A stretch of DNA of 64,000 nt from Henricia sp. BOLD:AAB3569 (taxonomy: Eukaryota > Echinodermata > Asteroidea > Spinulosida > Echinasteridae), in the NCBI GenBank assembly GCA_037783545.1, contig JBBELK010000009.1, forward strand, positions 496,001-560,000, given 5' to 3'. Under the pieces are notes generated by a model that had not been told where the DNA came from, searched no databases, and saw only the letters and a program-made list of their open reading frames with translations. Positions 732 through 56,080 of the stretch are shown piece by piece (the first letter of the stretch is position 1; each line of letters starts with the position of its first letter). Made by a program: the position numbers and the translations under genes.

Positions 732-824
732 CTTTCGTTTGAGGCTGGGTATTTCAGCTACCTTCCTTGCCTCATCGACCTGGTTAGCAGCATCTTGTCT
801 ATGCTGTGTTTTTAATTCATCAAG
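732..824 (-). CDS. Giant coiled-coil gene, exon 16 (last in window)
   Basis: A TACTAAC branch-point-like sequence sits about 22 bases before the AACAG acceptor; the donor is GTAAAT; 31 codons, phase 0. LDELKTQHRQDAANQVDEAR continues the coiled coil. The presence of a donor means the gene extends beyond the left edge. Confidence 0.78.
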
Positions 825-3800
825 CTGTTTCCATTCAGCCATGTTAGTAAAAGCAAGATATGGATGTGTTAGATGTTAGTAACAGGTTAACAAGCAAAAA
901 GACATGGCATATTACAAAGCAAGGTTTTTCACACAAACATGTACAGTTGAAGTCAGAAGTATAAATACACCTGTATGCAACCAAGTGTTAAAATTGGTGT
1001 GCTTACACCATTTTTGTAACAGTCTTTATTAAAGTCTTGATTTTGTGGAATTCCTCACGTGCATGCAGTACTTAAAACATAGCTGTAAGTTTATACTTCC
1101 GACTTCAACTGTACATGTACACAATGTAATGCAGCGACAGAGTTTCGATTTTGTTTATTATTATTATTTTTATTTCTTTCTGGTACTGGAACGAATGATT
1201 CTTCAAAAGCGCCCATTGCACTGTCGCTCGCAAGTGTGAGGAAACCCATGATGAATTAGAAACGGCCAGAATACACCGGGGAATCCCCTTGCTCTTCACG
1301 AAAGAATGCTCTGGGATCTTTAAAGTGCGTTAGTTACTGATACCTAACACACTGGACCAACGGCTTTATACATCCCTTCCGGAGGATGAAGCAAGGGTGA
1401 TTGAGTGCCTTGCTCAAGGGCACGAGTACCCCAGCCAGGGCGAGTTTCGAATCCGCAACCCCAGGTTTTCACCTGTGATCGCGAGTCAGTGACCCAAACT
1501 ACTCGGCCACGGTAACCTCACCACTTGGCCATGGTACCCACGGTTTCTGTGCATCACTTTGCACACACACCGACTCAGGATTAAAAAGTCACTCCTTGTG
1601 TCCAAAATGAATCAAGAGCATCAATCAAATTTTAGAAACATTTTTTTTTCGGTGGTCCTTTTTCACTTGTTCTGTTTGTGAGTGGCAGTGATTGCTAAAA
1701 AGAGCGATGTGTTTGAAGCTTATTTTTGCTTTGGTTTTCATTGTTTAAATTTGTTTTTGTGTACTTTTTAGTCAAGATATAGACTACCGAAGTGAATACG
1801 TCATCTTTTGTTAGTTGCCTAGGCAATGGCTCTGAACTAAAAATCACTGAACCGTGTCCCTGTGATTTTGCAATGGTACTTTTTTCCGACGGCAATGTTT
1901 AGAGCCAATTACCATGGCAACCCACGTTACACTTCGGCTGTCTATTCCTGAATGACCTTTAAGGTCAACTGCCAAACGTGTCACAAGCACATGCCCAGTC
2001 AAAAACTCTAAAATTACTTATTGTGAAGAACACACAACATATCTAAAGAAGAATGCTGGTTAACTAGCCTGAGGAAATGTCAGCTATATAGAGGCATTTT
2101 TACCAATTTTTAAACCAGTGTTCAAAAAGGTGCAATAAGCAAAAAGCAAAAAGGAATTATTAAAAAATAAAGCAATTGAGAATTACTCTCAGACACAACA
2201 CACACCCCGAGGTTAATAAGCATGTTCAAAATTAGAAGACATTTCAAAACCAAACCTGACTGACCTTTGTAGTGAGTTGGACGACCTCTCTCTCTTTGCG
2301 CTTGACCTCTGATTTGAGAAGAGCGACCTGACGCTCCTTGTCTTGCAGATCAACGTCTTTGGTCTGAAGCTAAGAATCAAAACAGCAATGATACAGAACA
2401 TTTTGCTATTAGTTGCCATGGTAATGATTCTCATTTTCAAGTCATGCAGCTGATTCGTCCATTGAAAAAATGCAGAGAAATGTTTGAACGGCATTTGATG
2501 AGAATTATCTCTAGTAATGGTGGATTCTTGTATAGCGCACATGTCTACCCTGCCGGTTACTCCTTGTGCAATTGATTGCTTTCCGGTGACGTCACACCTT
2601 CCATCCACCATTTTGGGTGTCATTTTTCATGACCAACGTGGCTCGAGTGATTACCGGCCCAAAAAGCAAGAAAAGCGCATTGGTTGCACTTAGCTCTGTT
2701 GCTTAACCCTGCTTTATGTTGTTGCGCCACGGCTGTTGTATCGATAAAGATAAAATGTATTTCTTCAGGCTATGAATCACGATCAAGTAAAAACAATTTC
2801 GTTTTTACAAGCTGGCTACGTGCGGCATTCTCGAATGAAAATGCGCGAGTATTTTGTATGCATGTTCATGTGCGTCTATTGGCGCGCGCGTGACCGGTGA
2901 CACCCAAACATTCCCGGATGTTCTACGTCACAGAAAGCAATCAATTAGTTCCCATGGTAATGATTCTCATTCTCAAGTTAGGTAAAATGTCCACTAAAAA
3001 AAATGCACAGAAAAGTTTGAACGGCATTTGATAAGAATTATCTTTTTTAATATAATGGTGGATTTTTGTATAGTACATGTACATGCACACGTGTACCCCG
3101 CAGGTAACTCTTTCTGCTATTACTAACCGTGTAGGACACTCCTTGTTGCAATTACTATCGCTGCATCAGGGAATCACCAGAACCAATATGCCTTAAGCAG
3201 GTGGCTGCCGGGCTAACTTAAGGCACACAATCCTATCAGCACGTAGATAGTGGCATTTCCCTAACAGCCCCCAAAATCGCTCTCGGGTTGACGAGGCAAT
3301 GCATAGTTCCGAGATTGCCCAGTTAACCCCGCCCCTTAGATATTGTTGCTATGTGCTCACAAGCCATCGCCAAAAAATGGCGACACAAACGTACAAAGCA
3401 ACGGGACTCGGCATGGAAAGCACAGATTCATTGGAGAAAACTCAAAGGTATTGATGTTTTAGGGTCGACAGTTACCGTAGCACACACTGAGCGAAGGGCT
3501 AGAAATGCAGGGATGACATATATTCATAAAAATGCGCTTTCCTACCTTTGAACAGCGAATCGCCCGACATTGAAACCAAAATTCACCCGGTCACTGGCGC
3601 ATACAACATACAAACTGTATGGGCAGAAAATTGCGTGATCGTTGTGATGATTGCATCACTTTGATCTATGTGGGCGCCGTCTGCTAGCTCTGTTGTGATT
3701 GGTCGGCGGGTTCGGTTGATTGACAGGTCGGAACTATGCATTGAGATTAAGCGTCTTGCCCACAAACACAAACATGTTGGCACTCTGGTACATTTTTACT

Positions 3801-6800
3801 TTGGTACTGCTTATCTTACCTGTATTTTGAGAGGTCGAAGGTCGCCGTAGTCTCGTAGCTTCTTTTTAAGGTTGTCTTCACTCTGCCGTAACTCTTTTAC
3901 AAGTTCTTCTTTTTCCTGCATAAATGCAGAAGAAAAACAATCAAGTACCAAATTCTAAAGATTAATCAAAAGATTGTACATGAACAGACTAGAGTATACA
4001 CTGTACACTGTACGTGTAAGTATATTTAAGGATGTGGGTGACCGGTCTTAAACTGTACATTTACGATTGGCTAAAGACCTGTTCGCTGATAATGGCCTGA
4101 GCCAAAAACTCAAATATCTTTTGTGTAAATTATAAAAACAGTAGCACTCTTTCTTTGACAGTAAACTTCAACGCTGTAGGACTCAAGTCCGGACTCAGAC
4201 TCGAGTCCCGATTTTCAAGAACTCGGACTCAGCTAGTCAGGACTCGGACTCGGACTCGGGCGGTAAGGACTCGGAGATTTGGGCCGAGTCCATCCGAGTC
4301 CAGTGAAATAAATAAATATACAATATGTGACGGGCTCTAGGAAAATGAGTCACAAGTCGCGCTGGCTAGTATTCTTTTTGCGACCATAAAAAGAAATCCG
4401 CGGCAAATCCACGCTCAATAAAATACCAAAACACAATGGAAATTCCTGGCGGTGCCCTGATACCGCCTGGAATGTCTGTGTTCCCCCTGGAATGTCTGTG
4501 TTACGCCTGGAATTTCTTTTGTGTTTAGGTATTTTAATGAGCGTAGAAATGCCACAGATTTCTTTTTATGGTCGCAAAAAGAATACTAGCCAGTGCGACT
4601 TGTGACTCATTTTCCGAGAGCCCGTCACATATTTTTAAAAAATACATTATACAGGCGCCAAAAATTATTTATAGTGTCTATTGTAATTTATTTTGGGGCC
4701 GAAAGTATTTCGAACATGTGAAATAAAATTTTGAGAATGTAAAAAGAAAAATCATTTCTACCGCTTAAAATAATTTTGAGCACTTGAAATGTATCTCACC
4801 TCCCAAAGAAACATTTTTCTCAGCCTAAAGCAAACTTACGAGCTGCCAAAGATGATAGGCACAATCATTGACACTTGCACTTGAAATTGAAATAAAGACT
4901 CGGGACTCGGACTCGGCCTTCTGAGGACTCGGATGTTTGCTGGACTCGGACTCAAGGACTCGAACACCAAGGACTCGGACTCGGGAAGTGGGGACTCGAC
5001 TACAGCCCTGGACTAAACTTTGCCATTTCACCATTTTGTATACATACAGTACTTTCTTAAGTTATTACATCTGCATTCATTCACAGTGCCGTGTGTTGGG
5101 TTGTTTTTGTTCTATCACACATACTGTACGCACATGCACACAAAACCTAAGTGATTGTTTATCCCACTACAGCTTCCTTACTTTTAAACATATGTGGTTT
5201 TTGAGTGTGTACGCATTTTCCATATAGGGCAAGATTAGAAAGTGTGTAGAACCAGCTGGGCCTTTATTATCCATTAAAGACTAACCATGTTGCGTGCTCT
5301 CCGCCAATAGGAATGCGTAAACTGTCTAAGCAATTTATGAATATTATTTAAAGTGTTCTTCCTACCTTGAGTTGTTTCTCCATTGTGTCAATGCTGGTTT
5401 TCAGCCTGCTCAAATCAGTTTCCTCCGTTTCCTTCTCTGCTGTTTGCCAATCCATCATCTGTTTCAGCCACATCGGGGTTGCAGGCTTGGCCAACGAACC
5501 TCCCGACCCTTCCCGTCCTCCCGGTGTCTTAGGAAGCCTCAAAGCACGGTCGGGACCTGCAGAGACGGACAAAGCAGTGATTGATTCGACTTCTTGCTCC
5601 GTCACCGAGGACATGGCGTCCAGACCGCTGTCGAATGATGATGGTCGCTGAGTGCCGTTTGCTTGTGGCATTTCTTTTCTCCCGGACTGGTTTGAAATGA
5701 AATTTCTACTCTTGCTGATGTCTTGAGGGCAAGTTTCGTGATCTGTGACGGTGTCCGTAGAAGATGCATCACTATCCAAATCGGCAGCTGTGTTTTTGTC
5801 AAGTCCGTTCTGATAAACAGGGACGTTACGACAACTGTCACTCCCTTTTCCATCAGAACGTGGTGAATGTCTTGACTGGGGAAGGCTGTTAAATCCCATG
5901 CCCACATTTGGCTTCTGAGGAGGTGATGTTTTAGGCAAAGGAGGGGGACGATCCAGACTTTCATCGGTTTCGGTATTGCTATCCAAAGAGTCACTTCTGA
6001 AACTGCCTGATGGGCTTGCGAGGAGTTTAAGATTTCTGTTCAAGTTTATTAGTTTCGGTGATGTTTGGGTTGTAGGAGGAAATCCGTTAAGTGGATTTGT
6101 GTCCTCGTTTTCGCTGTCCATTTCCAAAGAATCATCTCTGATGATCTTTCGGGGAGGGGAGCCATTCGGCAGGGGTGGAGGGTCCTCGGAGAGACTGTCG
6201 GAGCTCATGGAGCCAGTTCGCTTGCGAGACGAAACCTGCTTTCCAGGAGGTGCAAAGTCAGGCACGCATGGTGTGGGCTCGGGTATGGGTGGTGCTTCCT
6301 CCTCAACAAAGAACTGCCGATTGGAATCCGTCTCGGCGTTTCGGTATTCCAAAGAATCTATCGAGTCCTCGTCCACCGAGACCTCATCAAGAGGTGGCCA
6401 GATTTTGGCCGTTTCCCAATCTATATCAGGTGGTGGATCCCACGGGAGCTCGCACAACGCATCGACAAATTCATCAATCATTCGCTTCTTAGTTGTTGGA
6501 CTTGCAGCCTCCAAAGGTCTCAAGGACCTTTCCTCATCCTTCCTGATCTCCTCCTTAAAACACTCTTCTCCCGGAAGTGACGGATAACTTGGCTTCTTTC
6601 TCTTCTTCTCCGGCAGTGGCTTGTCAGTGGGGACGCATCTAGTAAGACGTCTTAGCAGTTTGGCTTTCGGCATTGTGCATTTGCCGATGAAGAGCTTGTT
6701 GAACTCCACAAAGTAATGCTTTCCGTCCTTCAAGAGGAGCGGGTCAGTCGGGCTGTGACCGTAGGGCAGAGACTCTAGGAACTCCTTCAAAGTCATCTCG

Positions 6801-9800
6801 TATTCCTCTGTTTGAAACAAGTGAGAAAATTATAATTAATCACTTCACATTTGAGATTAACAATAAACTGGTACCAAGTGCAGGATATTTGGTAAATTTA
6901 AAAAAAAATCAGTAAAAAGGCAAGACATAGTAAATTATTAAACCACCATAAATAGGTCTGTCACCAAGGGGGTGGGAATTATTATTATTATTATTATTTC
7001 TTTTTGGTATTCATACCAAGGATTCCTCAATAGTGCTCATTGCACTGTCACTCGCAAGAGTGAGGAAACCCATGAAGAATTCGAATTAGAAATAACCAGA
7101 GACACCAGGGAATATCCCCTTGCTCTTTACAAAAGAATGCTCTGGGATCTTTAGAGTGCGTTACCATTACCTAACACACTGGACCAACGGCTTTTCATCC
7201 CTTCCGAAGGATGGAGCAAGTGTGGTTGAGTGCCTTGCCCAAGGGCACAGGTACCGCAGCCGGATTCGAACCCGCAACCCCAAGTTTTCACCCATGATTA
7301 CGAGTCAATGACCCAAACCACTCGGCCACAGTACCCCAATAGGTCAGTAGGGAAGGTAGGGGGGTGGTGGAGAGGGAAAGGGGCAGAGACCTGCCTTGTG
7401 AACACTTGACACCCCTTCAGCTAAAAGTACATACAGATCATTCAATATCATGTTTTTATATTGTATGGAGAATTATGACCGAGTGGTCTAGTACATTGAA
7501 CTCAAGACTTTAGGTAATTCTATAGGTCCTGGGTTCGAATCCAGGCCTGCCCATGGTGCTTGTGCCCCTGGGCAGGACACTTTGCCATATATTGCTTCTC
7601 TCCACCCAGGAGTAAATGGGTTCCTGTGAGGGTCGTGAAGGTGTTATATTAGACCAAGAGTGCCTTAAAGGCACAGGCTCGTCAGCAATGCGCGCGCGCC
7701 AAATTCGTGCGATGAAATACGCAGCTCCATAGCAAATGCATGGGGCTGCGTATTTCGTGGCGCGAATTTGGCGGGCGCGCATTGCTGACGAGCCTGTGCC
7801 TTTAAGGCCTGTTTACACTTGATTCACCTTTGCCGAATCGAACTCCGCAATTTCCAAAAAGGCGAGTTGAAGCCGGGTGGGCGATAAGTGTAAACGCAAA
7901 AGATGACTTGAAAAAGGCGGATCAGACCCGGGTCTGATTCGTCTTTTTCAAGTCACCTTTGGGGTAGGGTTGAACCCCGCAAGGTCGCTTGTAGTGTAAA
8001 CACTACCCGAATACAGATTCGGCAATTTGAGTGTCCTTGGGGCAGTGCCCGCCGTGTGGTAGATTTAATTGACCAATCTGGCACCAGTTCGGCTACACCT
8101 AACAACTCACGCATGCGCTGCAGTTACAATTAGTGGTGACTTTCGCGGTTTCTGAAGGAGAGTTGAAGCCGAATCGAGGTGTAGTGTAAACGCGGCAAAT
8201 GTTCAGTTTTGTGGTCGCAATAAAAATGCTGGGTCTGTATCCACCTTTGCCGGTTCGAGTGTAAACACGGTGTAACGTGCAGCCAGGGCTGTATATGCTC
8301 CCCAGGGAGCTGAAAAAGTTAAATTAAGGAATGCCATCCAGAGCACAACAACCAGGGGTAATAATGTTAAGCTCCATGTTATGTGTGATATGTGCGCTAT
8401 ATAAATAACCACATTCTGCTGTTGTGTTCAGATTGTTTTTGCTTCGGCAAAAATAAATCATGAATCATCACCTATAAGAACAGTGGCCAGTAGACACTCA
8501 TTGGGGATGTATGTCAGAGGACCAGTTTGACTGCCTTCGTTGATGCACTGTGCCTTCCGGTTGCCAGCCACACCCTGGGGGAAAATAATACAAGAAATAT
8601 TTTATGAAGCTGCAATAATTGAGGAATAAAGTAGGTCTTTCAATACAGAAATAACAACATGACTCCCCAAAAATGCCACCCTCAAATTAATTAATATATT
8701 GTCATGGGTGGGTTATTTTTGGTCACCATGTAGGGCCTGTACCACAATAACATGAGAAGTCCACAGAAACTGTTGCTTGTTGAAAAAACTACTCTGTATA
8801 GGGCAATTCCGGATTTTCAAATTTACACTTCAGAGACTTTGAGGACTTGTAATGCTTCACGTATTCAAGTTGTTTGATTTTAAACACATGTTCTTCAAGC
8901 ATCATTGATGGAAGTGTAATTCCTGAAAAACTGATTGTAATGCCATTCTCAATATGCGCGGTACATCCAAAAATATCTCGGTTTCGGAGGTACTCATTGA
9001 GTACGTCCGAAATCGAGGGTTTTGGGGACGGGCATACACACTTAAGTTGTTTAAAATCAAACAACTTGAATACGTGAAGCATTACAAGCCCTCAAAGTGT
9101 AAATTTGAATTTCCGGAATTGCCCTATAACAAATTAATATTAACTACTTAAATTATTATGCAATACTTACATTAATTATAGTTTAGCATGCACTGTGCAA
9201 CCTCCAGCTTAAATAATTACTCAAAATGGCCATTATTTTCCGTAACTATATTCCAATACCGTATTACCGTATTACACATACATAGGAGTACAAGAAAGCG
9301 ATTAAATAAAACATGCCAGGGCCAGAATTTTTAGTTTATGTTTCTCTTTCAAAATTAACCACTTTTCTGTTCAGGGTTCACAACGCAATCCCACACAATT
9401 GTCTCAAAAATAATGCATACAAACTTGCGAGTTAAATGTATGTTTTTTGGTGTTTAGACTAAATGCTTATTATACTCGTAGAAAAATTCAGAAAGTTCCG
9501 TACATTTACTACAGTTGATTCTAAAAGTGCAATGACAACTTATGACTGTTACTCTCCAATTTTTTTTTCAATCACCTGCTAAAACTGTATTACATGTACA
9601 AGTAAATTTCAAACGGTATAAGGGTAATTCCCAAAATTAGGGGTCCAAAAGTGTGACATGCTTTTAAAGATTTTCAAGTGATTTTAATGATTGAAAGTGG
9701 TTTCCCGGCAGAAAATATTAATTTTTATTTCCACAAGCGCCACTTAAATTTAATGTTTGTGTGTGGATAAGGCACCAAGGTTAATGCACTCATTCTACAG

Positions 9801-12800
9801 CCAATTTTCATTGGCGTATGTAACTCGGGACACCAAATTCCTATTCAATATCATGGAACAAACTATGAGCCTTTATGGTCTTTTGTTTTAAATATTTGTC
9901 AGTAATCGGAGAACAAAATATTCAAGAATATGATGCTGTTCCCTATAATCACAGGCCACAGTCTATTACTGAGAATTTGTGATCATGAGTGGCAATTTTT
10001 GAAGCTCGGGATGTTGTACATAACTGGGACACCAAACGTTTTGGAACCCTAATTTTGGGAATTACCCATAAGTTATTTTTTTTAAAGGAAAATTAATAAT
10101 GCTTTTAAAATAAACAAAATATTAGAGTATAAAGTGATCAAAATATAATTATTGCTTTGTAAACAAATAACACAATTTTTGTGTCTTTGGCCAAAAACCA
10201 TCTGCTGCATCCTGAAAGAATGGCCTCTATTATTGCTCATTATTAACACATCTGTAGTCAACCAATGGGCATGCCTACACCCATTGTCATAGTTACTGAG
10301 TAGCTATTGTCATGGTAATTGCACACCTGGCCTGTACCACTTTGTGGGAGGTGTGATCACGTGCATACATGTAGTATAATTTGTCTTGATTTTAAAGGGG
10401 AAACCGTGTACATAGTAACATGTATATTTACAAAATTTGCTCCCCACAATTTATCAAAATCTGCATATGGGTCATTCCATGAAGTTGATCAGAGACCTTT
10501 TTTACCCTATATTTTTGAATTTACGAATTTCAGGAGTCAATTATACTAAAAAATACCAGCGGTTGGATGAGAGATATTAAAATTTCCATCAATTGTAACA
10601 AATTATAGAAGCAACAGTCAATTAAAAGGAATTTTGTGGAAATTCAGTGTTTTTCAACACATTTTTGTGAACTACATAAAAATGCAAGTTAGAATCCTTC
10701 AAATTCAGATTACAAAATTTTGTTTAGGTCAAGAACTGTATTCTCATGTCAAATTCAACGAGATCACTTTCGGGATCGGAGTGAAATGATCTAAATTGGC
10801 GTTGTGTCCCAATTACATCCGCAGCCAACATTTCATCAAATAACTCAAAATTACCAGACTCCATCATGACTGAACAGGCAAAGCAACGATATAAAGCAAC
10901 ACCATGATACAAATGACGACTTGTTGGTCAATTATTGGCCACTTTGTGAAAATGAAGAAATGTCAGTTTGTTTCTCAACTTCATGGAATGACCCATATAA
11001 AATATATTTGTGTATATGAATGAAAGAGTGGCATACATGTATAGCATATACTGCAGTAAACTACTAATGAGCTTCAATAATACCGAAACCAATTCTCCTC
11101 TGGTGTGAATTAGCTTTGGAAATAAAAATATTGTTCTAATTTTTGAATTTTGTGAGATTCAGGGCATTAGTGCAGTTTTATTGAATAGCTTGCTACCTGT
11201 ACTTGAATTAAAGACATAGGCTCGTCAATGCGCAACAGACAAATTCGTGCCACAAATTTCACCGCGCTCCATATTGCCCTGGCAGCCGCTCTTACAGTCC
11301 CAGAGGGTGTAGGGCCATGGTGCAGGCTAATAGCCTCGTCCATTCTGCAAATAGGGTGTGTATCTTTTCAAAATCAAATATTTATCACAGAAAACACACC
11401 CTTTGTAAATTCATGACATTTAGTTTCAGCCATATTCACATTATATTACAGATATGGAGGTATGGAGCGCGGTGAAATTCGTGGCACGAATTTGTTCGTG
11501 GTGTATTGACGAGCCTCCGTCTTTAAGACCCAGGGAATTGTAGTGGACTTGTGAAACCTTTTCGAGGGCTTATGATCTGGACTTATGTGGGACTTGCACT
11601 TCTCACAATAGGTTAGGGATATTGTGGGGTGTATGCATTCCGCTTGAATGATTTTGTATATGATTAGACAATTGTATCTGCATGACAGACACGAGGCTTG
11701 TCAGAGAAATAGGTGAAAACAGTCATTAACAAAACAAAAATCTAAAATTGAACCACATTAATATCCCTAACCTATTGTGAGTAGTATATATTATAAAGTA
11801 ATAGTACATACTGACCTGGCTTTTCCATTCCTTGGTTTCCTTCTTGATGTGACTAGCTTCTTCATCTTTTTCTAGCTCCATCTTTTCCTTCAACAAGGCT
11901 TCTCCAGAGACACCAAGTGAAGACAATTTCTCATTAAAGAGATCCTTCTCCCGTTTCAGTCGGCTGTTGTCCTCTCTCAGTATCTTTTCTGCCTCTTCTA
12001 GCTCTCTCAAGTCCCTTTTGATTTCCCGATTGTATTGGACGATCTCGGTCAGTCGATTGGTTGTTTTGACCCTCTCTGAGTTTGCACTCGCAAGCTCCTT
12101 CTTCACCCACTCCAGAGATTTCTCTAACTCCTGAATTTTTAGTTGTTTGTCTGTGTTTTCCTGATCTTTTTGCCCCTTTTCTGAATTGTCAAATGTCTTG
12201 GTGTCATTTTGGAGTTTTAAGTTCTCCGTTTCAGATTCCTGGAGTCTGTTCCTTAAATCTGCAATTGTATCTTCCAGTTCCTTTATTTTTCCTTTTTCTG
12301 TGCCGTCAGATGCTGAAAAAGTGGAGGTCTTTTCTTGTGAAATCAAACTCTTCTGTTGTTTGAGTTCGTCAATCTCAGACATGCACATGTCAATGTCTTC
12401 TTCAAGACGTTTGTTGGTCATCTCAAGCCGATCAAGGGTTGCTTTTTTGTCCTGCATCTCATCTTCAACTGACTCCTTATCAATTATAGCAGTTTCCAGT
12501 TGGTCTCTGGTTTCATCTAGTTCTCCCTGAAGTCTCTTGATTTCCTGCTCCAAAGATTCTACAGAAATGTCTCTTGAGTCCGATTCTTTGACGGATTGGA
12601 CTTGCTCGGTGGGACTCGGCTGTGGTTCCATCAGGTCGACCTCATCTTCAAGGCTAACAGGTTTGATAAATCCATCATCGGAGATCTGCTGATTGGGCGA
12701 CTGAAGCAACTGATCCTGCAATTCAGAGATGGTTCCCTTTAAATTAGAAATCTCTTCTTTCAGCGTTTTGTTAGCTTCCTCTTGCAAGCTCACTTTTGAC

Positions 12801-39800: not shown

Positions 39801-42220
39801 ATACCGGTATCTAAGGAAGAATGTTGGTAAACTAGCATGAAGAAATGTTAGCTACTTGGATGCATCAATGCTTCAGCAAACCTTGAAAATCTATATTATG
39901 TACAAGTGAATGGTAACAAAGTCCCGTGCACTGGACTTTTTTAGAAAACCACCTTCGGTTGTCAATTTCCAACATGAAATACCATTTTAGATGGAAATAA
40001 ATTAATGTGGTGTTTGTTACCATTGCTATCAACACTTTGAGTAAGGTTTTTCTTGTCAACTCATGAAAAACAAAATTGGGTCATTGCAAATGATACAATG
40101 GGCCTTTAAAGTAAAACCTTTCCGAATTTTAAAAAGAGGAAGAAAAGAAAATCAAAAATTTAAAGAACTGAGAAGTTGATCATCACTTCAGACCTTGAGT
40201 ACAAAACATGTGAGACAGGCTGAACAAATTTCTATATATTTTCTCACATAATCTTGAAATGTTCTCCATCCTAATTTTTGTTTTCATTGAATCTGCACTT
40301 ACCGATGCTTGATGAGTCATTTAAAAAAGAAATTTCTGATCACAGGGTGCGAAATTAACGGTTGCCTGATTGCCCTTGACACCCAAAAATTCATCCGGGC
40401 AACCAATTGTTTTAAGCATAGTTGCCCGCCGGGCAACCTTATCAAAATTAACATGATTAAAATGGCTAAATTTCTACCTGCCAGAAACGAGTTGTTTTGT
40501 GTCCTTTCATTTAAATCACCGTCGCGGCAATGCCCTTGCGTGTTCTTCTTTTCGGTCTTTGGCACCCTGGATCGACTTCTCAACTCAAAAACAAAAGACC
40601 TTTATACTCACAAGTCTTTGGATATCTCTTCTTGCATCTTTCTTGAGTTGTTCAATCTCCCGCTGATGCTCTCCCCACTGTCGTCTCAAGTCTGCTGCCC
40701 TCTGTCGGTCCCCAGTCACCGCATCGTTTAGCTCCTCCTCAAGTTTCCTCTTGCCTCGTCTCAGCTCGTCCATCTCGGCTAGCAGTTTGCCGCGATCCAT
40801 CTCAAAACTCCTCTTAACTTCCTCCTTGGCCTCGCCCCAGACTTGCTGCTTAACTTTGAGGTAATGAGTCTCCCGCTCTCGCTGTGCTTCACCTTAGGTA
40901 AGAAATTTCACTAAAATTTCACTAAAAGTGCTCCAATCACAAATTTTTAGTTCATGTTAAGAGGCTTAAAAGAAGATGCAAGATTTTACTTCAATACCTG
41001 CACTATTTTTTTTACAGCTTATCTGTGGAAATAATTGAGTTTTTCCATCAAATTTGCACTTATGCACGTATCAATTGTCCCCACCCTCTCCCCCGTTAGG
41101 TGGGGGTTTGGTAATATTTTGACCCATTGAAATAAAAAAAGTGAGGAGGGCTAGGGGGAGGGAAACAATTGACATGTGCATTACCAAAGCTTGACGAGTA
41201 ATTTTAAATAAAAACATTCTGATCAACTTCTCAACCATATTTTCTTAATTCAAATTTTACTTTTGACACATGTACATGTATACAAAATGATTCCTACAAA
41301 AATGTTGGCCATGTAAAAAATCTTGGCATTTTTACTCACACTGATGCAATTACATGTAAGTTATTTGGTTGATATACTTGTGTATATGAAGTACCGGTAT
41401 CCTTTTTTGACATATTGCTCTTCATAAAAATTTGTTGAAACTCTTAGGCACAATGTCTCCCCAAGAAATAATAGGTTTAGAAATTGGTGTAACATAAATT
41501 TGAATAATGGCCGACACCCCAAATTCTTCACTTCAGAAAGTCACATACATGTACTACGCTGTTGTGGTGCACGCCATTGCATATCAACTAACAGTTTGGT
41601 TGCTTTAGGCATTCTTTCCTTAGGAGGTGAACACGGCGTTGATTCTGTACTTCACACCTACAGCGTGCACCACATAGCAACAAAAATTTAGTCTGTTCAA
41701 GTAGATACTAAGTGAGCATGTGATTGTGAAAGAGGTATGTCAGTACACCAAACGAAACACACAAAATGCTAATTTGCAAGCACACGTTTGTCCGTCATGG
41801 AGTGCGCCTTTAATAATGCAGCTTGTGAATCTACCTACCCTGGGTCCTAGCAAGCAGCTCTTGTTTCTGCTTTAAGATCCGATTGATCTCCTGGTCATGT
41901 TGCTTGGTGACCGACTCCCGAAGGCTGGCAAGTTCCCTCTGCTTCTCATGACCAAGTTTTGATCGCAACTCACTCAGCGACGATGTCGCTTTCTGCTGTT
42001 CCTGATCACGAACGCTCTTGATTTCCGCTTGCTTCTCGCGTCGCAGCTCCTTACCATGACCCTTTTCGGTTTCTAGATCCTTCTTTAGGTGGATGACGTG
42101 TGCTCGGAGTTCGTCAACGACAATTCGAAGATTGGCATTTTGTGCCTCTGGAGACGATCCTGGGACGTACATTTGCTTTGCCCCTTTTGGGGAAGCTCTT
42201 GGTATCTTTGAGTTTGACAT
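732..42220 (-). CDS. Giant coiled-coil protein with a JAKMIP (Marlin) N-terminus; gene continues past the left edge
   Basis: This entry joins the exons listed separately below; exon 1 starts at the ATG at 42220. Vertebrate JAKMIPs are coiled-coil proteins that bind microtubules and, through their C-terminus, Janus kinases or GABA-B receptor subunits; that is family knowledge. Seen here: the N-terminal half of the JAKMIP pattern is conserved in order (ADLR.QW..HQ.EI, KDRVI.ELDKELG, PLIEKNKR, and KDQNELLEFR near codon 564). After that block the vertebrate C-terminal region is not seen. The frame instead runs through exons 9-16 with matching intron phases: a very long Glu/Lys/Gln-rich coiled coil, a small non-coiled domain, a Pro/Ser-rich region and more coiled coil. 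The exon lengths sum to 8,646 bases, 2,882 codons, without a stop. No signal peptide or membrane segment is seen. Joining the JAKMIP part to the rest as one transcript is inference from phase and strand; two adjacent genes remain possible. One JAKMIP segment between exons 7 and 8 was not found. Confidence 0.72.
942..1113. mobile_element. Tc1-type MITE with Sleeping Beauty-like ends
   Basis: A 172-bp element with inverted ends starting TACAGTTGAAGTCAGAAGT and its mirror on the right (ACTTCCGACTTCAACTGTA). The motif CAGTTGAAGTCGGAAGT is the well-known end of Tc1 elements of the Sleeping Beauty type. No transposase is present inside. Confidence 0.8.
1153..1516 (-). mobile_element. tRNA-derived SINE, family C copy 1
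   Basis: Minus-strand SINE. At its right end is a tRNA Ser/Leu-like head (GTGGCCGAGT A-box region and GGATTCGAA B-box-like sequence), and at its left end a tail ending in ATT repeats. It matches copies at 6979 and 56052, all in the same orientation. Confidence 0.8.
2010..2120. repeat. Fragment of the TTAAAGGCC-ended MITE family
   Basis: The segment with AAGAAGAATGCTGGTTAACT and CTGAGGAAATGTCAGCTA matches the interior of the element at 39736-40110 and its relatives. No clear ends remain. Confidence 0.55.
2265..2369 (-). CDS. Giant coiled-coil gene, exon 15
   Basis: Acceptor CTTAG, donor GTCAGT, 35 codons, phase 0. It encodes basic/acidic coiled coil (LQTKDVDLQDKERQVALLK, KRKEREVVQLTTK). Confidence 0.83.
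2571..2945 (-). mobile_element. MITE carrying a transposase-like first exon, copy 1
   Basis: A 375-bp element with ends ATTGATTGCTTTCCGGTGACG and ...CAGAAAGCAATCAAT. On the minus strand it holds the same start-exon-like stretch as copies at 24951 and 34723, here damaged: the ATG is GTG and the donor GT is CT. Confidence 0.72.
3157..3795 (+). mobile_element. SINE family D copy 1, split by an inserted MITE
   Basis: Left part (CAGGGAATCACCAGAAC... GGTTGACGAGGCAA) and right part (ATTAAGCGTCTTGCCCA) both match the intact relative at 59161-59420. The 445-bp MITE at 3298-3742 lies between them. Confidence 0.65.
3298..3742 (+). mobile_element. MITE with AATGCATAGTTCCGA ends, copy 1
   Basis: Inverted ends AATGCATAGTTCCGA and TCGGAACTATGCATT. 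The interior holds a short basic reading frame starting MCSQAIAKKWRHKRTKQRDS. A close copy in the same orientation lies at 18869-19303. Confidence 0.72.
3820..3915 (-). CDS. Giant coiled-coil gene, exon 14
   Basis: Acceptor TGCAG, donor GTAAGA, 32 codons, phase 0. EKEELVKELRQSEDNLKKKL then RDYGDLRPLKIQ continues the coiled coil that starts at the end of exon 13. Confidence 0.85.
4172..5014. mobile_element. Degenerate hAT-like element rich in GACTCGG repeats
   Basis: Both ends are built of GGACTCGGACTC units in opposite orientation, and the right end reads ACTCGACTACAGCCCTGGA. The interior is A/T-rich with another element nested at 4323-4631. Related GACTCGG or GACTTGG sequence is at 18845-19680 and 46115-46335. 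The class assignment is an inference from the CAGGGCTGTAGT-type end. Confidence 0.5.
4323..4631. mobile_element. Foldback MITE with about 75-bp arms, nested
   Basis: Near-perfect inverted arms begin TATGTGACGGGCTCTAGG on the left and end CCGAGAGCCCGTCACATA on the right. Between them is a small direct repeat, CCTGGAATGTCTGTGTT. Confidence 0.82.
5366..6807 (-). CDS. Giant coiled-coil gene, exon 13 (domain, proline/serine-rich tail)
   Basis: Acceptor TTTCAG, donor GTAGGA, 1,442 bases, phase 1 in and phase 0 out. The first 60 or so residues (TLKEFLESLPYG, GKHYFVEFNKLFIGK, KAKLLRRL) look like a compact domain together with exon 12. Next comes a basic patch (PEKKRKKPS), an acidic Trp/Pro segment (LPWDPPPDIDWETAKIWPP) and a long disordered region with two related motifs: DSLSEDPPPLPNGSPP and DESLDRPPPLPKTSPP. 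PPPLP cores are typical SH3 or EVH1 ligands, so a partner-binding role is possible. The exon ends in renewed coiled coil (LSRLKTSIDTMEKQLK). No family match is recognised. Confidence 0.88.
6979..7334 (-). mobile_element. tRNA-derived SINE, family C copy 2
   Basis: Same layout as the copy at 1153: ATT-repeat tail on the left, tRNA-like head on the right with GGATTCGAACCCGCAACC read on the plus strand. Confidence 0.85.
7665..7806. mobile_element. Foldback element, GGCACAGGCTCGTCAGC family, copy 1
   Basis: Nearly palindromic over 142 bp: TTAAAGGCACAGGCTCGTCA at the left and its mirror at the right. Relatives are at 11208, 44160 and 52429. Confidence 0.85.
7807..8276. mobile_element. Harbinger-like MITE with GTTTACACT ends
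   Basis: Left end GCCTGTTTACACTTGATTC, right end GAGTGTAAACACGG. Sub-terminal inverted motifs (GATCAGACCCGGGTCTGATT) recur in the fragment at 33003. The class is inferred from end type only. Confidence 0.5.
8472..8574 (-). CDS. Giant coiled-coil gene, exon 12 (non-coiled domain, first part)
   Basis: Acceptor CCCCCAG, donor GTGATG, 103 bases, phase 0 in and phase 1 out. It encodes about 34 residues including GNRKAQCINEGSQTG and YIPNECLLATVLIG. These are hydrophobic and not heptad-like, so they probably form the start of a small folded domain completed by exon 13. The family is not recognised. A SINE tail lies about 65 bases beyond the donor. Confidence 0.7.
8799..9126. mobile_element. Foldback MITE with TAGGGCAATTCCGG ends
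   Basis: Arms of about 90 bp: TAGGGCAATTCCGG and the AATGCTTCACGTATTCAAGT region are mirrored on the right (CCGGAATTGCCCTA). The flanking TA suggests a TA target site. Confidence 0.8.
9127..9621. other. A/T-rich intron, nothing recognised
   Basis: Intron of the giant gene between exons 12 and 11. No open frame, RNA or clear repeat seen. Confidence 0.5.
9622..10067. mobile_element. MITE with GGGTAATTCCCAAAATTAGG ends
   Basis: The left end reads GGGTAATTCCCAAAATTAGG and the right end is its mirror, CCTAATTTTGGGAATTACCC. No coding content is seen. Confidence 0.8.
10467..10995. mobile_element. MITE with GGGTCATTCCATG ends, copy 1
   Basis: Ends ATGGGTCATTCCATGAAGTT and AACTTCATGGAATGACCCAT. The interior is unrelated to that of the copies at 27837 and 30799, which share the ends. 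Confidence 0.8.
11208..11526. mobile_element. Foldback element, CAGGCTCGTCA family, long variant
   Basis: Ends ATAGGCTCGTCAATGCGC and GTATTGACGAGCCT match the 142-bp copy at 7665, but about 180 bp of extra sequence sits between the arms. Confidence 0.7.
11816..16174 (-). CDS. Giant coiled-coil gene, exon 11: single 4.36-kb exon
   Basis: Acceptor GCCCAG, donor GTCAGT, 1,453 open codons, phase 0 at both ends. The sequence is almost entirely Glu/Lys/Gln/Leu heptads, so a long rod is expected, with short breaks such as IPSSCDVTEP and Ser/Asn-rich pieces near DPSSQGDFDNQESSG. A motif of the form LQ.R..E..ER...YEET.AQAD recurs at exon residues about 621, 791 and 950, spaced 160-170 residues. Coding density is certain; what the rod binds is not visible. 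Long single exons of this kind are common in golgin- and centrosome-type rods, which does not identify it. Confidence 0.92.
16245..16783 (+). mobile_element. MITE with TAAAGGCCC ends, copy 1
   Basis: Left end CTAAAGGCCCAGTGGATCAT, right end TCATCTACAGGGCCTTTAAA. It lies in the intron between exons 10 and 11. A close copy lies inverted at 22387-22923. Confidence 0.82.
17045..17553 (+). mobile_element. MITE with GTATACATGATTGGTA ends and a GCGAAGTGG minisatellite, copy 1
   Basis: Ends GTATACATGATTGGTA and TACCAATGATGTATAC. The middle holds many degenerate units of the form GGGGCGAAATGG and ACTTGGGCGAAATGG in both orientations. A perfect hairpin, TTTTCGTCT-CATA-AGACGAAAA, follows. Confidence 0.82.
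17788..18304 (-). CDS. Giant coiled-coil gene, exon 10
   Basis: Acceptor TTTGTAG, donor GTGGGC, 517 bases, ends in phase 0. A polar linker (EQTRKPDSQLSLSLEENEQG) leads into coiled coil: HVLERKVEQLQTEKESLEAK, then LNERIQELQRSEQSLLDRVA. A tRNA-derived SINE lies about 120 bases upstream of the acceptor. Confidence 0.83.
18420..18545 (-). mobile_element. tRNA-derived SINE, family A copy
   Basis: The minus strand reads a tRNA-like head: CCAGCTCAGTGGTTGAGTGG (A box) and GGGTTCAAGTCCCACC (B box). Matching heads are at 45818 and, degenerate, at 27360. It is not a functional tRNA, since the family is repeated with a shared 5' leader (GAACCGGCC..). Confidence 0.7.
18845..19680. repeat. GACTCGG-rich hAT-like remnant interrupted by a MITE
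   Basis: GGACTCGGACTCAAG before 18869 and ACTCTGACTCGGACTC after 19303 resemble the ends of the element at 4172. The A/T-rich middle also resembles it (CCTCCCAAAGAAA, TTTCTCGGCCTAAAG). Confidence 0.55.
18869..19303 (+). mobile_element. MITE with AATGCATAGTTCCGA ends, copy 2
   Basis: Same ends and interior as 3298-3742, with a small deletion in the basic reading frame (after CATTGGAG). It is inserted in the GACTCGG-rich remnant. Confidence 0.72.
19702..19940 (-). CDS. Giant coiled-coil gene, exon 9
   Basis: Acceptor AACCAG, donor GTAAGC. It starts in phase 0 and ends in phase 2 (TGG CA). It encodes about 79 residues of coiled coil, RVPDLEQIKAHLQTNIHNLE onward, ending LKKLEECSESW. The phase fits exon 10 exactly, giving W-Q-E-E-K across the junction. 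No family beyond generic coiled coil is recognised. Confidence 0.8.
20105..20352 (+). repeat. Foldback family AA, right arm
   Basis: Matches the right arm of the complete 442-bp element at 35491: GTTACGAGAGTATATTGG, then GGGTTTTTAGAAAGGCATG, and ending CCCCCTTTACTGTGGAAAG. Confidence 0.75.
20353..22386. other. Intron without recognised features
   Basis: A/T-rich part of the intron between exons 8 and 9. A roughly 60-bp stretch is repeated at 21360-21440 and 21510-21590 (GGATcATTTCTGAGACATTT, then GACAGGACCG), suggesting a local duplication. No gene is seen. Confidence 0.5.
22387..22923 (-). mobile_element. MITE with TAAAGGCCC ends, copy 2 (inverted)
   Basis: Reverse complement of the element at 16245-16783, with about the same length and high identity by eye. 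Together the two copies flank exons 9 and 10 of the giant gene. Confidence 0.82.
23322..23757 (-). mobile_element. MITE with GTATACATGATTGGTA ends, copy 2 (inverted)
   Basis: Starts CATGATTGGTATCTCGAAAA and ends GGTTTACCAATCATGTAC, the reverse of the 17045 copy. The AGACGAAAA hairpin and a shorter GCGAAGTGG array are retained. Confidence 0.8.
23758..24721. other. Intron stretch, nothing recognised
   Basis: Sequence between a MITE and exon 8 of the giant gene. A short exact inverted repeat, CCGTCCCTCACGCGTGAGGG, lies near 24165. No gene is seen. Confidence 0.45.
24722..24877 (-). CDS. JAKMIP-like gene, exon 8 (last clear JAKMIP block)
   Basis: Acceptor CCCAG, donor GTAAGG, 52 codons, phase 0. 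WQLQDSKDQNELLEFRILEL is almost identical to human JAKMIP1 LQDARDQNELLEFRNLEL. Downstream of this point the vertebrate C-terminal region is absent, and the exon ends with MPEPSLDDRDKTSE. Confidence 0.88.
24951..25330 (-). mobile_element. MITE carrying a transposase-like first exon, copy 2
   Basis: Left end ATTGATTGCTTTCCGGTG is intact; the right end is lost after GACCGGTGACACCCAAAC. The minus strand has an intact ATG, 13 codons reading MAQQHKARLSNRG, and a GTAAGT donor. Confidence 0.72.
25626..25690 (-). CDS. Possible small exon between exons 7 and 8 of the JAKMIP-like gene
   Basis: AAACAG acceptor and GTGAGA donor bound 65 bases that read DIGDDQSLSKQSSDDLANKF in one frame. This is acidic/Ser-rich like the linker before human LTKEYQALQRAYALL. 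The length is not a multiple of three while exons 7 and 8 are both phase 0, so it could only be used with a second, unseen exon of complementary length. It could be chance. Confidence 0.3.
26554..26751 (-). CDS. JAKMIP-like gene, exon 7 (linker)
   Basis: Acceptor CACCAG, donor GTAATA, 66 codons, phase 0. The start EKDRLQRSPP continues the JAKMIP pattern DREKLIRRK. The rest is a low-complexity Ser/Pro/acidic linker (PIPRPRSGSLSALSVEEEGD), likely disordered, in the place of the human MDSETSSMASFRTD linker. Confidence 0.82.
27115..27295. repeat. Foldback family AA fragment
   Basis: Contains CACTCGTAACCGGGACGG mirrored by CCGTCCCGGTTACGAG, followed by the right-arm end CCCCCTTTACCGTGGAAAG. Confidence 0.7.
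27360..27432 (-). repeat. Degenerate SINE family A head
   Basis: Reads GTGATCAAGTGGTTAAGTAC on the minus strand with the family leader TTTGAACCAGCC. It lies just upstream in transcript sense of nothing coding and some 20 bases beyond the donor of exon 6. Confidence 0.5.
27453..27659 (-). CDS. JAKMIP-like gene, exon 6
   Basis: Acceptor TTGTAG, donor GTGAGG, 69 codons, phase 0. It encodes RERENQSL-type coiled coil then REEELRKLRVEVQEQFLEIV. The latter corresponds to the JAKMIP block EEREVEFLKLQVIEQQNIID. Confidence 0.85.
27837..28242. mobile_element. MITE with GGGTCATTCCATG ends, copy 2
   Basis: Ends GGGGTCATTCCATGAGGTTG and CAACCTCGTGGTATGACCC are inverted. The interior differs from the copy at 10467. 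Confidence 0.75.
28689..28841 (-). CDS. JAKMIP-like gene, exon 5
   Basis: Acceptor TACCAG, donor GTAAAT, 51 codons, phase 0. It encodes TPLIEKNKRLLRKIKDLEQ, aligning with human LKPLVEKNKRMNKKNEDL, then the KALTEENQKL coiled coil. Confidence 0.88.
28960..29125. mobile_element. Palindromic MITE, GGATTAAAAGTGGG ends, copy 1
   Basis: Inverted arms include GGATTAAAAGTGGGTTTGG and AACCGGATAAAGGCCTGG, with a GGCCCAAGCC centre. A second copy is at 49920, and partial sequence is at 4021 and 58360. Confidence 0.8.
29425..29512. repeat. Repeat terminus next to the exon 4 donor
   Basis: The AGGATGCGTAAACTGTCTAA / TTTATGAATA stretch recurs at 5300-5345 beside the donor of exon 13. The left part (CGTTTAAAACCGGCC) resembles the palindromic MITE family. 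Confidence 0.5.
29521..29634 (-). CDS. JAKMIP-like gene, exon 4
   Basis: Acceptor TACAG, donor GTACGA, 38 codons, phase 0. KMADLNLTLRKLEDKNKQLV matches the human JAKMIP pattern KIAELNSVIRKLEDRNTLL. A repeat terminus starts within about 20 bases of the donor. Confidence 0.88.
30055..30128 (+). repeat. Foldback family AA, short right-arm fragment
   Basis: TTTTTGGGAAAATATGGTCT then GCTCCCTTTACCGTGGAGAG matches the outer right arm of the 35491 element. Confidence 0.6.
30360..30560 (-). CDS. JAKMIP-like gene, exon 3
   Basis: Acceptor TTTCAG, donor GTGAGT, phase 0 at both ends, 67 codons. It encodes KDRVISELDKELGHKSGYSQ and QNEKDAL, a strong JAKMIP signature. An Ala/Pro-rich stretch (SSAAPPPPDS) follows where the human protein carries a short linker. 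The intron before it is about 10 kb. Confidence 0.88.
30799..31373. mobile_element. MITE with GGGTCTTTCCAT / ATGGAATGACCC ends, copy 3
   Basis: Ends TGGGTCTTTCCATAAAAACA and TGTTTTCATGGAATGACCCA. It belongs by its ends to the 10467 family. Confidence 0.72.
31456..31734. mobile_element. Foldback element, CCAATTTCATGGCACTGTTT arms
   Basis: CCAATTTCATGGCACTGTTTA at the left is mirrored by AACAGTGCCATGAAATTGG at the right, and internal motifs (GTTACCGCTACAGTATTTCATGG) are partly mirrored. No second copy is seen in the window. Confidence 0.7.
32637..32890 (-). repeat. Foldback family AA, left arm
   Basis: TCTTTCCACAGTAAAGGGGG through ACGCTCGTAACCGGGACGG matches the left arm of the complete copy. 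The right arm is missing and a SINE tail (GGCGCTATATAAGATTG) follows. Confidence 0.75.
33003..33183. repeat. Fragment of the GTTTACACT-ended element
   Basis: CGAATCAGACCCGGGACTGATT and CAACTCGCCTTTTTGAAAAT match the element at 7807 in reverse. It ends GAGTGTAAACGGGTC. Confidence 0.6.
33805..34360 (+). pseudogene. Tc1/mariner transposon remnant with broken transposase
   Basis: Ends TACACTACCCATAAAAACTTTGG-type on the left and the mirror on the right, bounded by TA. Inside, the plus strand near 33960-34010 encodes WPAQSPDLNPIE, the Tc1 transposase signature around its third acidic catalytic residue. Only a C-terminal piece survives, and several stops and frame breaks follow. It is not functional. 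Confidence 0.85.
34723..35018 (+). mobile_element. MITE carrying a transposase-like first exon, copy 3 (inverted)
   Basis: Right end CCGGAAAGCAATCAAT is intact. The plus strand has CCATGGCGCAACAACATAAA, then a GTAAGT after AACAGAG, so start codon and splice donor are both preserved here. Confidence 0.72.
35491..35932. mobile_element. Foldback element AA, complete copy
   Basis: About 220-bp arms in near-perfect inverted orientation: GTCTTTCCACGGAAAAGGGG at the left and CCCCCTTTACTGTGGAAA at the right, meeting at CCGGGACGGCC / GTCCGTCCTGG. No coding content. Partial copies lie at 20105, 27115, 30055, 32637, 55050 and 59911. Confidence 0.88.
36209..36230. repeat. CT microsatellite
   Basis: Eleven or so uninterrupted TC repeats in the large intron between exons 2 and 3. 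Confidence 0.95.
36975..37065. repeat. Poly-C/poly-G tract with hairpin potential
   Basis: Long C runs followed by eight or nine A and a G-rich mirror (AAAAAAAGGGGGAGGGG). The minus strand has the G runs needed for quadruplex or triplex forms. Length here is prone to assembly error. Confidence 0.85.
37334..37403 (+). other. Exon-like 70-base segment of unknown origin
   Basis: A TGTGCAG acceptor and GTGAGT donor bound a stretch reading RLRKNRDLLKFKLFKSSLDC in one frame, on the strand opposite to the host intron. No other exon nearby fits it. It may be a captured exon in a transposon or a chance open frame. Confidence 0.25.
38309..38988 (+). mobile_element. Harbinger-like element with broken Myb/SANT-type frame
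   Basis: Inverted ends AGGCTTTTTCACACTATGAA and TTCATAGTGTAAAAAGGCCT, with GACCCGTGTTG repeats near both. Around 38655-38765 the plus strand reads TWSEEEVAA in one frame and then AIWTDNSIQNQLDGTTRN in the next, the pattern of Myb/SANT-like proteins of PIF/Harbinger transposons, with a one-base frame break between. The transposase itself is absent. Confidence 0.6.
39290..39600. repeat. Degenerate fragment of the TTAAAGGCC-ended family
   Basis: CAATTGTCTGCAG and GTTATCATTGCAATGATTGCT, then ACAACACTTTTAGTGG-like sequence, resemble the interior of 39736-40110. A Tc1-type end (TACAGTTGAGGTCAGAAGTT) follows at 39608. Confidence 0.45.
39736..40110 (+). mobile_element. MITE with TTAAAGGCCC ends, copy 3
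   Basis: Left end TTAAAGGCCCTATGTATCAT, right end GATACAATGGGCCTTTAA. The interior shares CATCAATGCTTCAGCAAACC with the inverted copy at 44999. Confidence 0.8.
40342..40571. mobile_element. Short hAT-like element, CAGGGTGCGAAATTAA end
   Basis: Left end CAGGGTGCGAAATTAACGG, right end TTTGGCACCCTGG, with an internal GTTGCCCGCCGGGCAAC hairpin. It lies within 35 bases of the exon 2 donor. The hAT assignment rests on the CAGGG end only. Confidence 0.55.
40612..40892 (-). CDS. JAKMIP-like gene, exon 2
   Basis: Acceptor CTAAG, donor GTGAGT. It enters in phase 1 and leaves in phase 0. It encodes coiled coil with RAADLRRQWGEHQREIEQLK then KKDARRDIQRL, which lines up with human JAKMIP1 around ADLRAAYQAHQDEVHRIK. 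An hAT-like remnant lies about 35 bases downstream of the donor. Confidence 0.88.
41040..41838. other. Intron 1 of the giant gene, mostly unrecognised
   Basis: ATCAATTGTCCCCACCC / GGGGGAGGGAAACAATTGA at 41070-41175 forms an inverted-repeat element of about 100 bp. The remainder holds a weak mirror (GTTGTGGTGCACGCC / GCGTGCACCACATAGCAAC) and no coding sequence. Confidence 0.5.
41839..42220 (-). CDS. JAKMIP-like gene, exon 1 (start codon)
   Basis: The ATG at 42220-42218 opens a protein beginning MSNSKIPRASPKG. The frame upstream stays open but the next start-like codon is only TTG, so this ATG was chosen. A short upstream ORF (MKSGLSLH, then stop) overlaps the leader in another frame. The exon encodes the head of the JAKMIP coiled coil (VDELRAHVIHLKKDLE and KQRELASLRESVTKQHDQE, matching the human pattern L.ALREGLIRQHEQE). 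It ends in phase 1 at the donor GTAGGT. Confidence 0.85.
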
Positions 42221-54342: not shown

Positions 54343-56048
54343 GTGAGTAGTTTCCTCCTCTATCATCCATGGAGGAAGAAAACAAAGCTTAGGCTAGGTG
54401 TTATGCGATTGTCAGAGTTTTTTTTGTATTGTTGGTCCAAATTAAATTGCCAGGCAAAACGCGCTTGTGAGATGTCATGTAAATGGGTTGATGTTTTTTT
54501 ATTAATTATTCATTTCTCAGTGTACAACGGGGTGTAGGCCTATTTGTTATTGTTAGTTCAGAGAGTGTAAATTAGTCTGACAGTTGAACCTCGTTAACAA
54601 GAGACCCTTGAGAATTTGTTGTTTACTTGGCTATTAATATAATGCACCTATCAATTGTTTCCCCAAACCTTCTCCTCCCAGGCACCCCAGCTAGAGAGGG
54701 GCAAAATTTAGGTGACAAAAATCACCACCCTCGGGTGCAAAACATGCACGCCTTGAAATTTATTCACAGAAATTTGTATTCCTATTTCTCTAATTCCATC
54801 TTTTTCATTGTTTATTTATCACTTTCCTTTTTAATTTTTAGGCCAGACACACAACCTCATCACTTGTCGCACCTTTATGCTCGAGGAGATTGGGCCTTCT
54901 CACCCAGTGGACCAAATTCTTCAAGGCATCATACATCACTAGATTACACAACCAATCATTTAACCAGGTATAAGTATGTGGTGCTGTGTCTTTCTTTTCA
55001 GAACAGATTTTATAACATGAAAACCAGGAGAGTAACTAGGGTGAAACACGTAACACAAGTGTCCGTCCCGGTTACGAGCGTATATAGGAAATTTGTACAC
55101 AGGGTTTTTAGAAAGGCATGTTGTCACACTATTTGTAACCCTTTTTGGGCCCGAGTTATCTCTTCAGAACAACTTAAACTTATTTATTTTATTTTGAGAC
55201 CAGACAAAGGTATTTCCTTTCCCTTTACCGTGGAAAGACTAACATGTGATCCATAACAAGTGTTTGCTTTATAATAGTTGGGAGCCATGGGTGATGTTCA
55301 CTACACCAGAATGTTTATTATTGTGGTGTTCAATGCAGTAACTTTCCACTGTGACCATTTGGTTAAAAATATTTAAAAAGTACAGAAAGGGTCGAGTAAA
55401 CTTTTATCTCCAATGTAATATTTTTTTATACATACTGTAACATAGGCATTTAATACATCCTTCGAAATTACCAAAGAGCTTCGACTCCGTGAACCTAAGC
55501 ATCTGTAGTGCTCTGTGCCCTTGGGTAAGGCACTTTGCCATAAGTTGCCAATCTCCACCCAGGATTAAATGGGTACCTGCAAGGGTTGTAGCCGCTCAGT
55601 GATTGTGTCAGGCTGTCTGAGCTGCATACTTCCCAGGGAGCTGTGGCCAATGACCAGGAGTAATATGTGTAAAGTGCCATGCATATCTCGCAGGGGTGCG
55701 CAGGGTAATTTGAATACAATATTCACGGAAATTATGAATTTGTCTTTAATTTGTAAGAACTCTGGATGCCGCAATAGGGCAACATTTCGGGAAGACTCCC
55801 CGGGGACCACCAAAATTTCGGCAAGAACCACTCAAAATGACACCTTATTTTTTTACCCAAAGCTTCCAAAAATGCTTCCAGACTGAAGAGAAACAGCTCT
55901 AGTCCTAATAAAAATGGTTTTTGACCTAAAAAAAATGATTTTAAAAAATATATATATTAGGGCGACACCAAAATGTCGCCCTATTGAGCGTGTCGCCCTA
56001 ATATAGCTTTTTTACACACAAAATGTCGCCCTATCCTAGCATTCATAG

Positions 56049-56080
<32 letters not shown>

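Follow-up and report, generated by a model that had tools for sequence, protein, structure and literature searches.

The minus strand of the Henricia DNA analysed here (64,000 nucleotides, referred to below as the window) carries a chain of 16 exons, running from 42220 to 732, in which exons for a JAKMIP-like head lie directly upstream of exons for a rod, a Pro-rich part and further coiled coil, all on the same strand and in compatible phase. We consider it reasonably probable (about 0.6) that these exons belong to one gene, the long product of which is a giant JAKMIP.

The exon chain on the minus strand

The spliced chain (Table 1) comprises 8640 nt and encodes 2880 residues with no stop codon, and all of its 15 junctions are phase-compatible. 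This bears out the exons, the strand and the coordinates proposed in an initial annotation of the same DNA, including its phase-matched further exons, and the roughly 2,300 residues said to be added by them correspond to residues 565-2880 (2,316 residues in eight exons, 9-16). The proposal that the protein ends in a Pro-rich tail was not upheld: exons 14-16 come after this part, and a donor at 731, near the window edge, takes the chain out of the window and leaves it open there, so that the protein would be longer than 2880 residues.

Coding potential was assessed with a codon score that had exon 11 as its sole training sequence, the null being sampled open non-exon stretches of equal length from either strand. 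Thirteen of the 15 other exons scored higher than every null stretch of their own length, the null sets varying in size between 10 and 3111 stretches and being small for exon 10 (10 stretches) and exon 1 (38 stretches, all exceeded). Exon 13 was too long for any open null stretch of its length to be available, and exon 12 was not distinguished from the null, as 14% of 2666 stretches reached its score; under a mixed codon model, 6.2% of 3756 did so. A strict exon scan of the minus strand, trained partly on stretches from four of the model exons, returned nine candidates, all nine of them in the model. The lax version of the scan returned 20 rows, 14 of which belonged to the model, exon 1 being listed with a later start, and six did not; exons 12 and 16 were absent from this list. 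These two exons were positioned by eye to suit the phase, and the acceptor of exon 16 is weak (score -3.5). Exon 11 may also join exon 13 directly, in frame, at a second AG, with exon 12 being skipped. The segment 25690-25626 (65 nt) was tried as an internal exon and dropped, since it broke the frame into exon 8.

Upstream of the chain, between 42300 and 64000, the minus-strand scan revealed no convincing coding exon; 36 ORFs of at least 85 aa are present there across the six frames. Several repeats were also seen in the window. Two inverted copies, 94-97% alike, lie in two introns at 16275-16783 and 22386-22893, the copy in intron 8 coinciding with a CpG-rich patch. A dispersed repeat (1138-1261, 6962-7274 and 56044-56355; copies 77-96% alike) looks tRNA-derived by eye, the minus strand of one copy reading 'GGGTTCGAATCC', and a palindromic element at 4322-4633 has 130-nt arms that are 91% complementary and spaced by 52 nt.

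Table 1. Exons of the chain and associated features, in order along the minus strand (positions are those of the window; E values are for tblastn with the provisional human JAKMIP1 sequence described below)
Feature	Position	Strand	Description
Exon 1	41839..42220	-	Carries the start codon (MSNSK...) and the first coiled coil of JAKMIP; phase 1 out; E 1.3e-11
Exon 2	40612..40892	-	JAKMIP coiled coil; E 1.5e-12
Exon 3	30360..30560	-	JAKMIP 'KDRVI.EL.KELG' block; E 2e-4, collinear
Exon 4	29521..29634	-	JAKMIP 'LRKLED' block; E 0.007, collinear
Exon 5	28689..28841	-	JAKMIP 'PLIEKNKR' block; E 4.6e-4, collinear
Exon 6	27453..27659	-	Coiled coil; coding score above all 479 null stretches; no tblastn match
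Exon 7	26554..26751	-	Ser/acidic linker; coding score above all 554 null stretches; no tblastn match
Candidate alternative last exon in intron 7	25622..25690	-	DIGDDQSLSKQSSDDLANKFNR-stop; outside the long model; score 8.7
Exon 8	24722..24877	-	KDQNELLEFRILELEE, end of JAKMIP_CC3; Pfam PF16034 36.1 bits; E 4.7e-6
Intron 8	19941..24721	-	4781 nt, decisive join; contains repeats
Exon 9	19702..19940	-	Rod start; no Met; phase 0 in, phase 2 out
Exon 10	17788..18304	-	Rod
Exon 11	11816..16174	-	4359 nt, 1453 residues, acidic coiled coil
Exon 12 (tentative)	8472..8574	-	34 codons and one further base; compatible in phase, without a significant coding score
Exon 13	5366..6807	-	Segment without coil, followed by a Pro/Ser-rich stretch and the beginning of a coil
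Exon 14	3820..3915	-	Coiled coil
Exon 15	2265..2363	-	Coiled coil
Exon 16 (weak acceptor)	732..824	-	Coiled coil; terminates at donor

The head, the rod and the distal exons

Sequence comparison supports the head (residues 1-564) as a coiled coil homologous to JAKMIP. With a provisional human JAKMIP1 sequence as a query, one not taken from a database and thus giving a lead and not a database result, tblastn gave six collinear blocks in exons 1, 2, 3, 4, 5 and 8 (E 1.5e-12 to 0.007). After splicing, head residues 21-378 matched residues 9-368 of this query at 36% identity over 360 residues (E 3e-53). None of 101 controls, namely the reversed sequence and 100 shuffles with a block size of seven, reached E <=0.007, the best being 0.027. 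Independently of the provisional query, exon 8 alone exceeded the Pfam cut-off for JAKMIP_CC3 (30.2 bits) with a match to model positions 160-191 of 200; the complete spliced head, at 29.2 bits, was slightly below it. The start of the head, MSNSKIPRASPKGAK, resembles residues 2-17 of rat NECC2 as published, SKKGAGSRAKGDKAE. Within exon 8, the segment 24779-24877 is exactly seven residues, that is one heptad, short in comparison to the provisional JAKMIP1 sequence. JAKMIP signatures had initially been noted throughout exons 1-8; they held for exons 1-5 and 8, whereas exons 6 and 7 were not matched by tblastn and the larger part of CC3 is missing.

About 157 positions at the beginning of JAKMIP_CC3 were not found in the head. 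Among internal exon candidates of phase 0 within the 1676 nt of intron 7, even the best was equalled or beaten by 83 of 100 shuffles. The C-terminus of the long vertebrate form, also a provisional query, was not matched anywhere in the window (best E 0.96), beyond which the chain continues. Within the window, replacement of the vertebrate C-terminal region, as claimed earlier, is thus supported, and most of CC3 is gone too. Marlin-1 (JAKMIP1) is described as binding microtubules and kinesin-I through its N-terminus, and GABAB1 and JAKs through a C-terminal region of 200 residues (PMC2685396). We infer that the latter region is CC3 and that the part of the head kept here is the microtubule-binding one. 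As the likely JAK/GABA-B-binding region is mostly absent, binding by that route is not expected.

The added rod of the initial annotation is confined to exons 9-11 (residues 565-2269), which account for 1,705 of the 2,316 further residues, the remainder not being rod. It contains 19% Glu and carries a net charge of -209, in comparison to +2 over the 564 residues of the head. Coiled-coil propensity was estimated with a home-made heptad score, compared with 40 shuffles, and 2295 of the 2880 residues were assigned to coil. The score was higher than in all 40 shuffles for exons 9, 10 and 11, each taken separately. Exon 11 contains three copies of a repeat of about 31 residues with the (I/L)AQAD motif, near residues 1459, 1632 and 1793, with the rough consensus 'EE.LQ.R(I/V).E.(E/V)ER...(E/K)ET(I/L)AQAD'. 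Exons 12-13 (515 residues, 11% Pro) are only 12% coil, yet their coil score also exceeded the shuffles, and exons 14-16 are coil-like, with a heptad score of 13.9 against a shuffle maximum of 14.7.

No Pfam family matched exons 12-13, and PDB sequence searches with most of exon 13 and with exon 2 gave no match; the AlphaFold model of 6350-6805 had a mean pLDDT of 38, too low to be of use. The only PDB match, of the exon 11 frame to PEX14 (E 6e-5), was judged to be a coiled-coil chance match, and a single weak match of the rod to residues 565-604 of the provisional JAKMIP1 sequence (E 0.017) was attributed to coil background. Relatives were found neither in GTDB genomes, queried with the Pro-rich exon and the exon 8 frame, nor in IMG/VR, queried with the Pro-rich exon and the head.

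The putative junction of exons 8 and 9

The decision between one gene and two depends on the join of exons 8 and 9. Since 12 of the 15 junctions of the chain are phase 0, the phase match of these two exons is weak evidence. The coding signal, however, starts at the acceptor of exon 9: the first 21 codons of this exon scored 10.1, a value reached by 0.1% of 7358 null stretches (exon 9 belonged to the training set of this score), while the 21 in-frame, ATG-led codons preceding it scored -4.1, as reached by 23% of null stretches. The ATG that opens the exon 9 frame is at 20003, the exon itself being without Met. The read-through of exon 8 was non-coding-like, as indicated by 72% of 987 null stretches scoring as high. 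At splice thresholds low enough for all model acceptors except that of exon 16, the best first-exon candidate in intron 8 was equalled or beaten by 89 of 100 shuffles, the best terminal-exon candidate by 80 and the best internal-exon candidate by 82. Very short exons would escape this test; a first coding exon only a few codons long may be present, as may a 5ʹ UTR exon, in which case translation would start at the ATG ahead of exon 9. A patch at 22001-23000 in intron 8 is CpG-rich (o/e 1.01 and 1.43), similarly to the exon 1 region (1.05 and 0.98), and most of it falls in the repeat whose inverted copy is at 16275-16783. Four AATAAA hexamers were counted in intron 8, and the hexamer is also present in the four other introns inspected. 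The single transcript considered initially thus gains from the coding signal at the exon 9 acceptor and from intron 8 showing no detectable start or end, and little from the phase match; judged from the DNA alone, a transcript containing both exons 8 and 9 is favoured.

One gene with a giant JAKMIP as its long product would account for the collinear match of six exons, with the spliced head unequalled by its controls, for exon 8 exceeding the JAKMIP_CC3 cut-off, for the stop-free 2880 residues with every junction compatible in phase, and for a coding signal that begins with exon 9 behind an intron whose exon candidates are no better than shuffles. Less easily reconciled with it are phase 0 being the rule at this locus, the unlike net charges of head and rod, the complete head remaining under the JAKMIP_CC3 cut-off, the weakness of exons 12 and 16, and a heptad register that is continuous at three of the 15 junctions, about as expected by chance. 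The CpG-rich patch within intron 8 also counts against it, as does the terminal-exon candidate of intron 7, with which a short JAKMIP would be in keeping. These two features, together with the ATG at 20003, would fit two head-to-tail neighbours, one a short JAKMIP that stops short of exon 9 and the other a giant coiled-coil gene that starts ahead of exon 9 and is perhaps the counterpart of vertebrate C4orf50, an arrangement which we regard as possible though rather unlikely. The closeness of human C4orf50 and JAKMIP1 on chr4 is in line with such neighbours, as is the short form of human JAKMIP1 that presumably ends just past the KDQNELLEFR-type block. They are opposed by the first- and terminal-exon candidates of intron 8 being no better than shuffles, by the ATG-led stretch ahead of exon 9 not being coding-like, and by the absence of Met from exon 9. 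An assembly artefact or a decayed gene is highly improbable: the window is repeat-rich, but no stop occurs in 2880 codons and 13 of the 15 tested exons carry a coding signal.

A short JAKMIP could also be made from the same gene next to the giant form, by intron retention or an alternative last exon, a reading which overlaps that of the giant JAKMIP and which we regard as unlikely. The intron 7 candidate 25690-25622 is coding-like and was equalled by one of 100 shuffles, so that a short product is possible; the segment could be where a short form ends, or it could belong to a pair of exons that the model misses. Alternative C-termini are found in vertebrate JAKMIPs, as in rat NECC2, described with 844 and 915 residues (PMC3765260), and five splice variants of Marlin-1 are mentioned (PMC2685396). 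However, the candidate is the outcome of one of six tests and would stop the protein ahead of the conserved KDQNELLEFR block, and the exon 8 read-through is not coding-like.

Returning to the giant JAKMIP, should exons 8 and 9 be spliced together, the head would anchor the protein to microtubules, by analogy with the JAKMIP1 head, which binds microtubules and kinesin-1. At the textbook helix rise of 0.1485 nm per residue, the rod would measure about 250 nm if it were one continuous helix, and would keep the C-terminal part at a distance. The protein could then serve as a long, golgin-like tether or scaffold that links microtubules to membranes or to a microtubule-organising centre, and the short product may be made too.

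Relation to vertebrate JAKMIPs, C4orf50 and golgins

The N-terminal 360 residues are collinear with the vertebrate JAKMIPs, JAKMIP1 (Marlin-1), JAKMIP2 (NECC1) and JAKMIP3 (NECC2), with 36% identity to the provisional JAKMIP1 sequence, and the KDQNELLEFR block at the end of CC3 is shared. This degree of divergence is in keeping with an invertebrate origin of the window. The chain differs in lacking about the first 157 CC3 positions and, as far as the window and a provisional query go, the long vertebrate C-terminus. It also differs in length, with 2880 or more residues against 915 in the longest published isoform found (PMC3765260), and seems from its sequence to be over three times longer than the short vertebrate JAKMIPs. 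JAKMIP has been called vertebrate-specific (PMC3765260) and listed among families that 'only have vertebrate members' (PMC4906994), and no invertebrate or giant JAKMIP was found among the papers listed in searches of the open-licence PMC literature, although automatic gene models may exist. JAKMIP2 has been placed at the Golgi and the centrosome (PMC12732012).

The rod resembles golgins and other giant coiled-coil tethers in being a very long acidic coiled coil with non-coil parts. When all 16 exons were compared with Pfam, alone or as the enclosing open frame, only JAKMIP_CC3 reached its cut-off among the matches listed; none of the golgin, GRIP, GRAB or Rab-binding domains did so within the window, beyond which the chain continues, and exon 15 scored 14.8 bits for Rab_bind against a cut-off of 27.

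Human C4orf50 is a coiled coil that lies on the same strand as JAKMIP1 and directly adjacent to it. It would resemble the rod in this coiled-coil nature and in its place relative to JAKMIP1. Published coordinates put a CpG in the C4orf50 gene body at chr4:5,972,071 (PMC11245434) and JAKMIP1 at chr4:6,106,385-6,253,183 (PMC3352055), possibly in different genome builds, and C4orf50 is described as little studied (PMC9714206). Vertebrate C4orf50, the next gene downstream of JAKMIP1, could represent the rod after its detachment. In a wider scenario, which we consider distinctly unlikely as it stands, the giant form would be ancestral: the JAKMIP of the invertebrate ancestor would have been a single gene comprising head, rod and Pro-rich end, one copy would have split into JAKMIP1 and C4orf50 following the genome duplications of vertebrates, and JAKMIP2 and JAKMIP3 would have shed the rod while acquiring CC3 and a new C-terminus. 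A fusion in this lineage, the other origin offered initially, would be the alternative.

A JAKMIP head outside vertebrates, lacking most of the JAK/GABA-B region and joined to a rod, would point to microtubule binding as the older property and to the signalling partners as later additions. The adjacency of the two vertebrate genes is then predicted to be the trace of a split gene, and the little-studied C4orf50 would gain a possible origin. If RNA confirms one gene, the view of the origin of the JAKMIP family would change.
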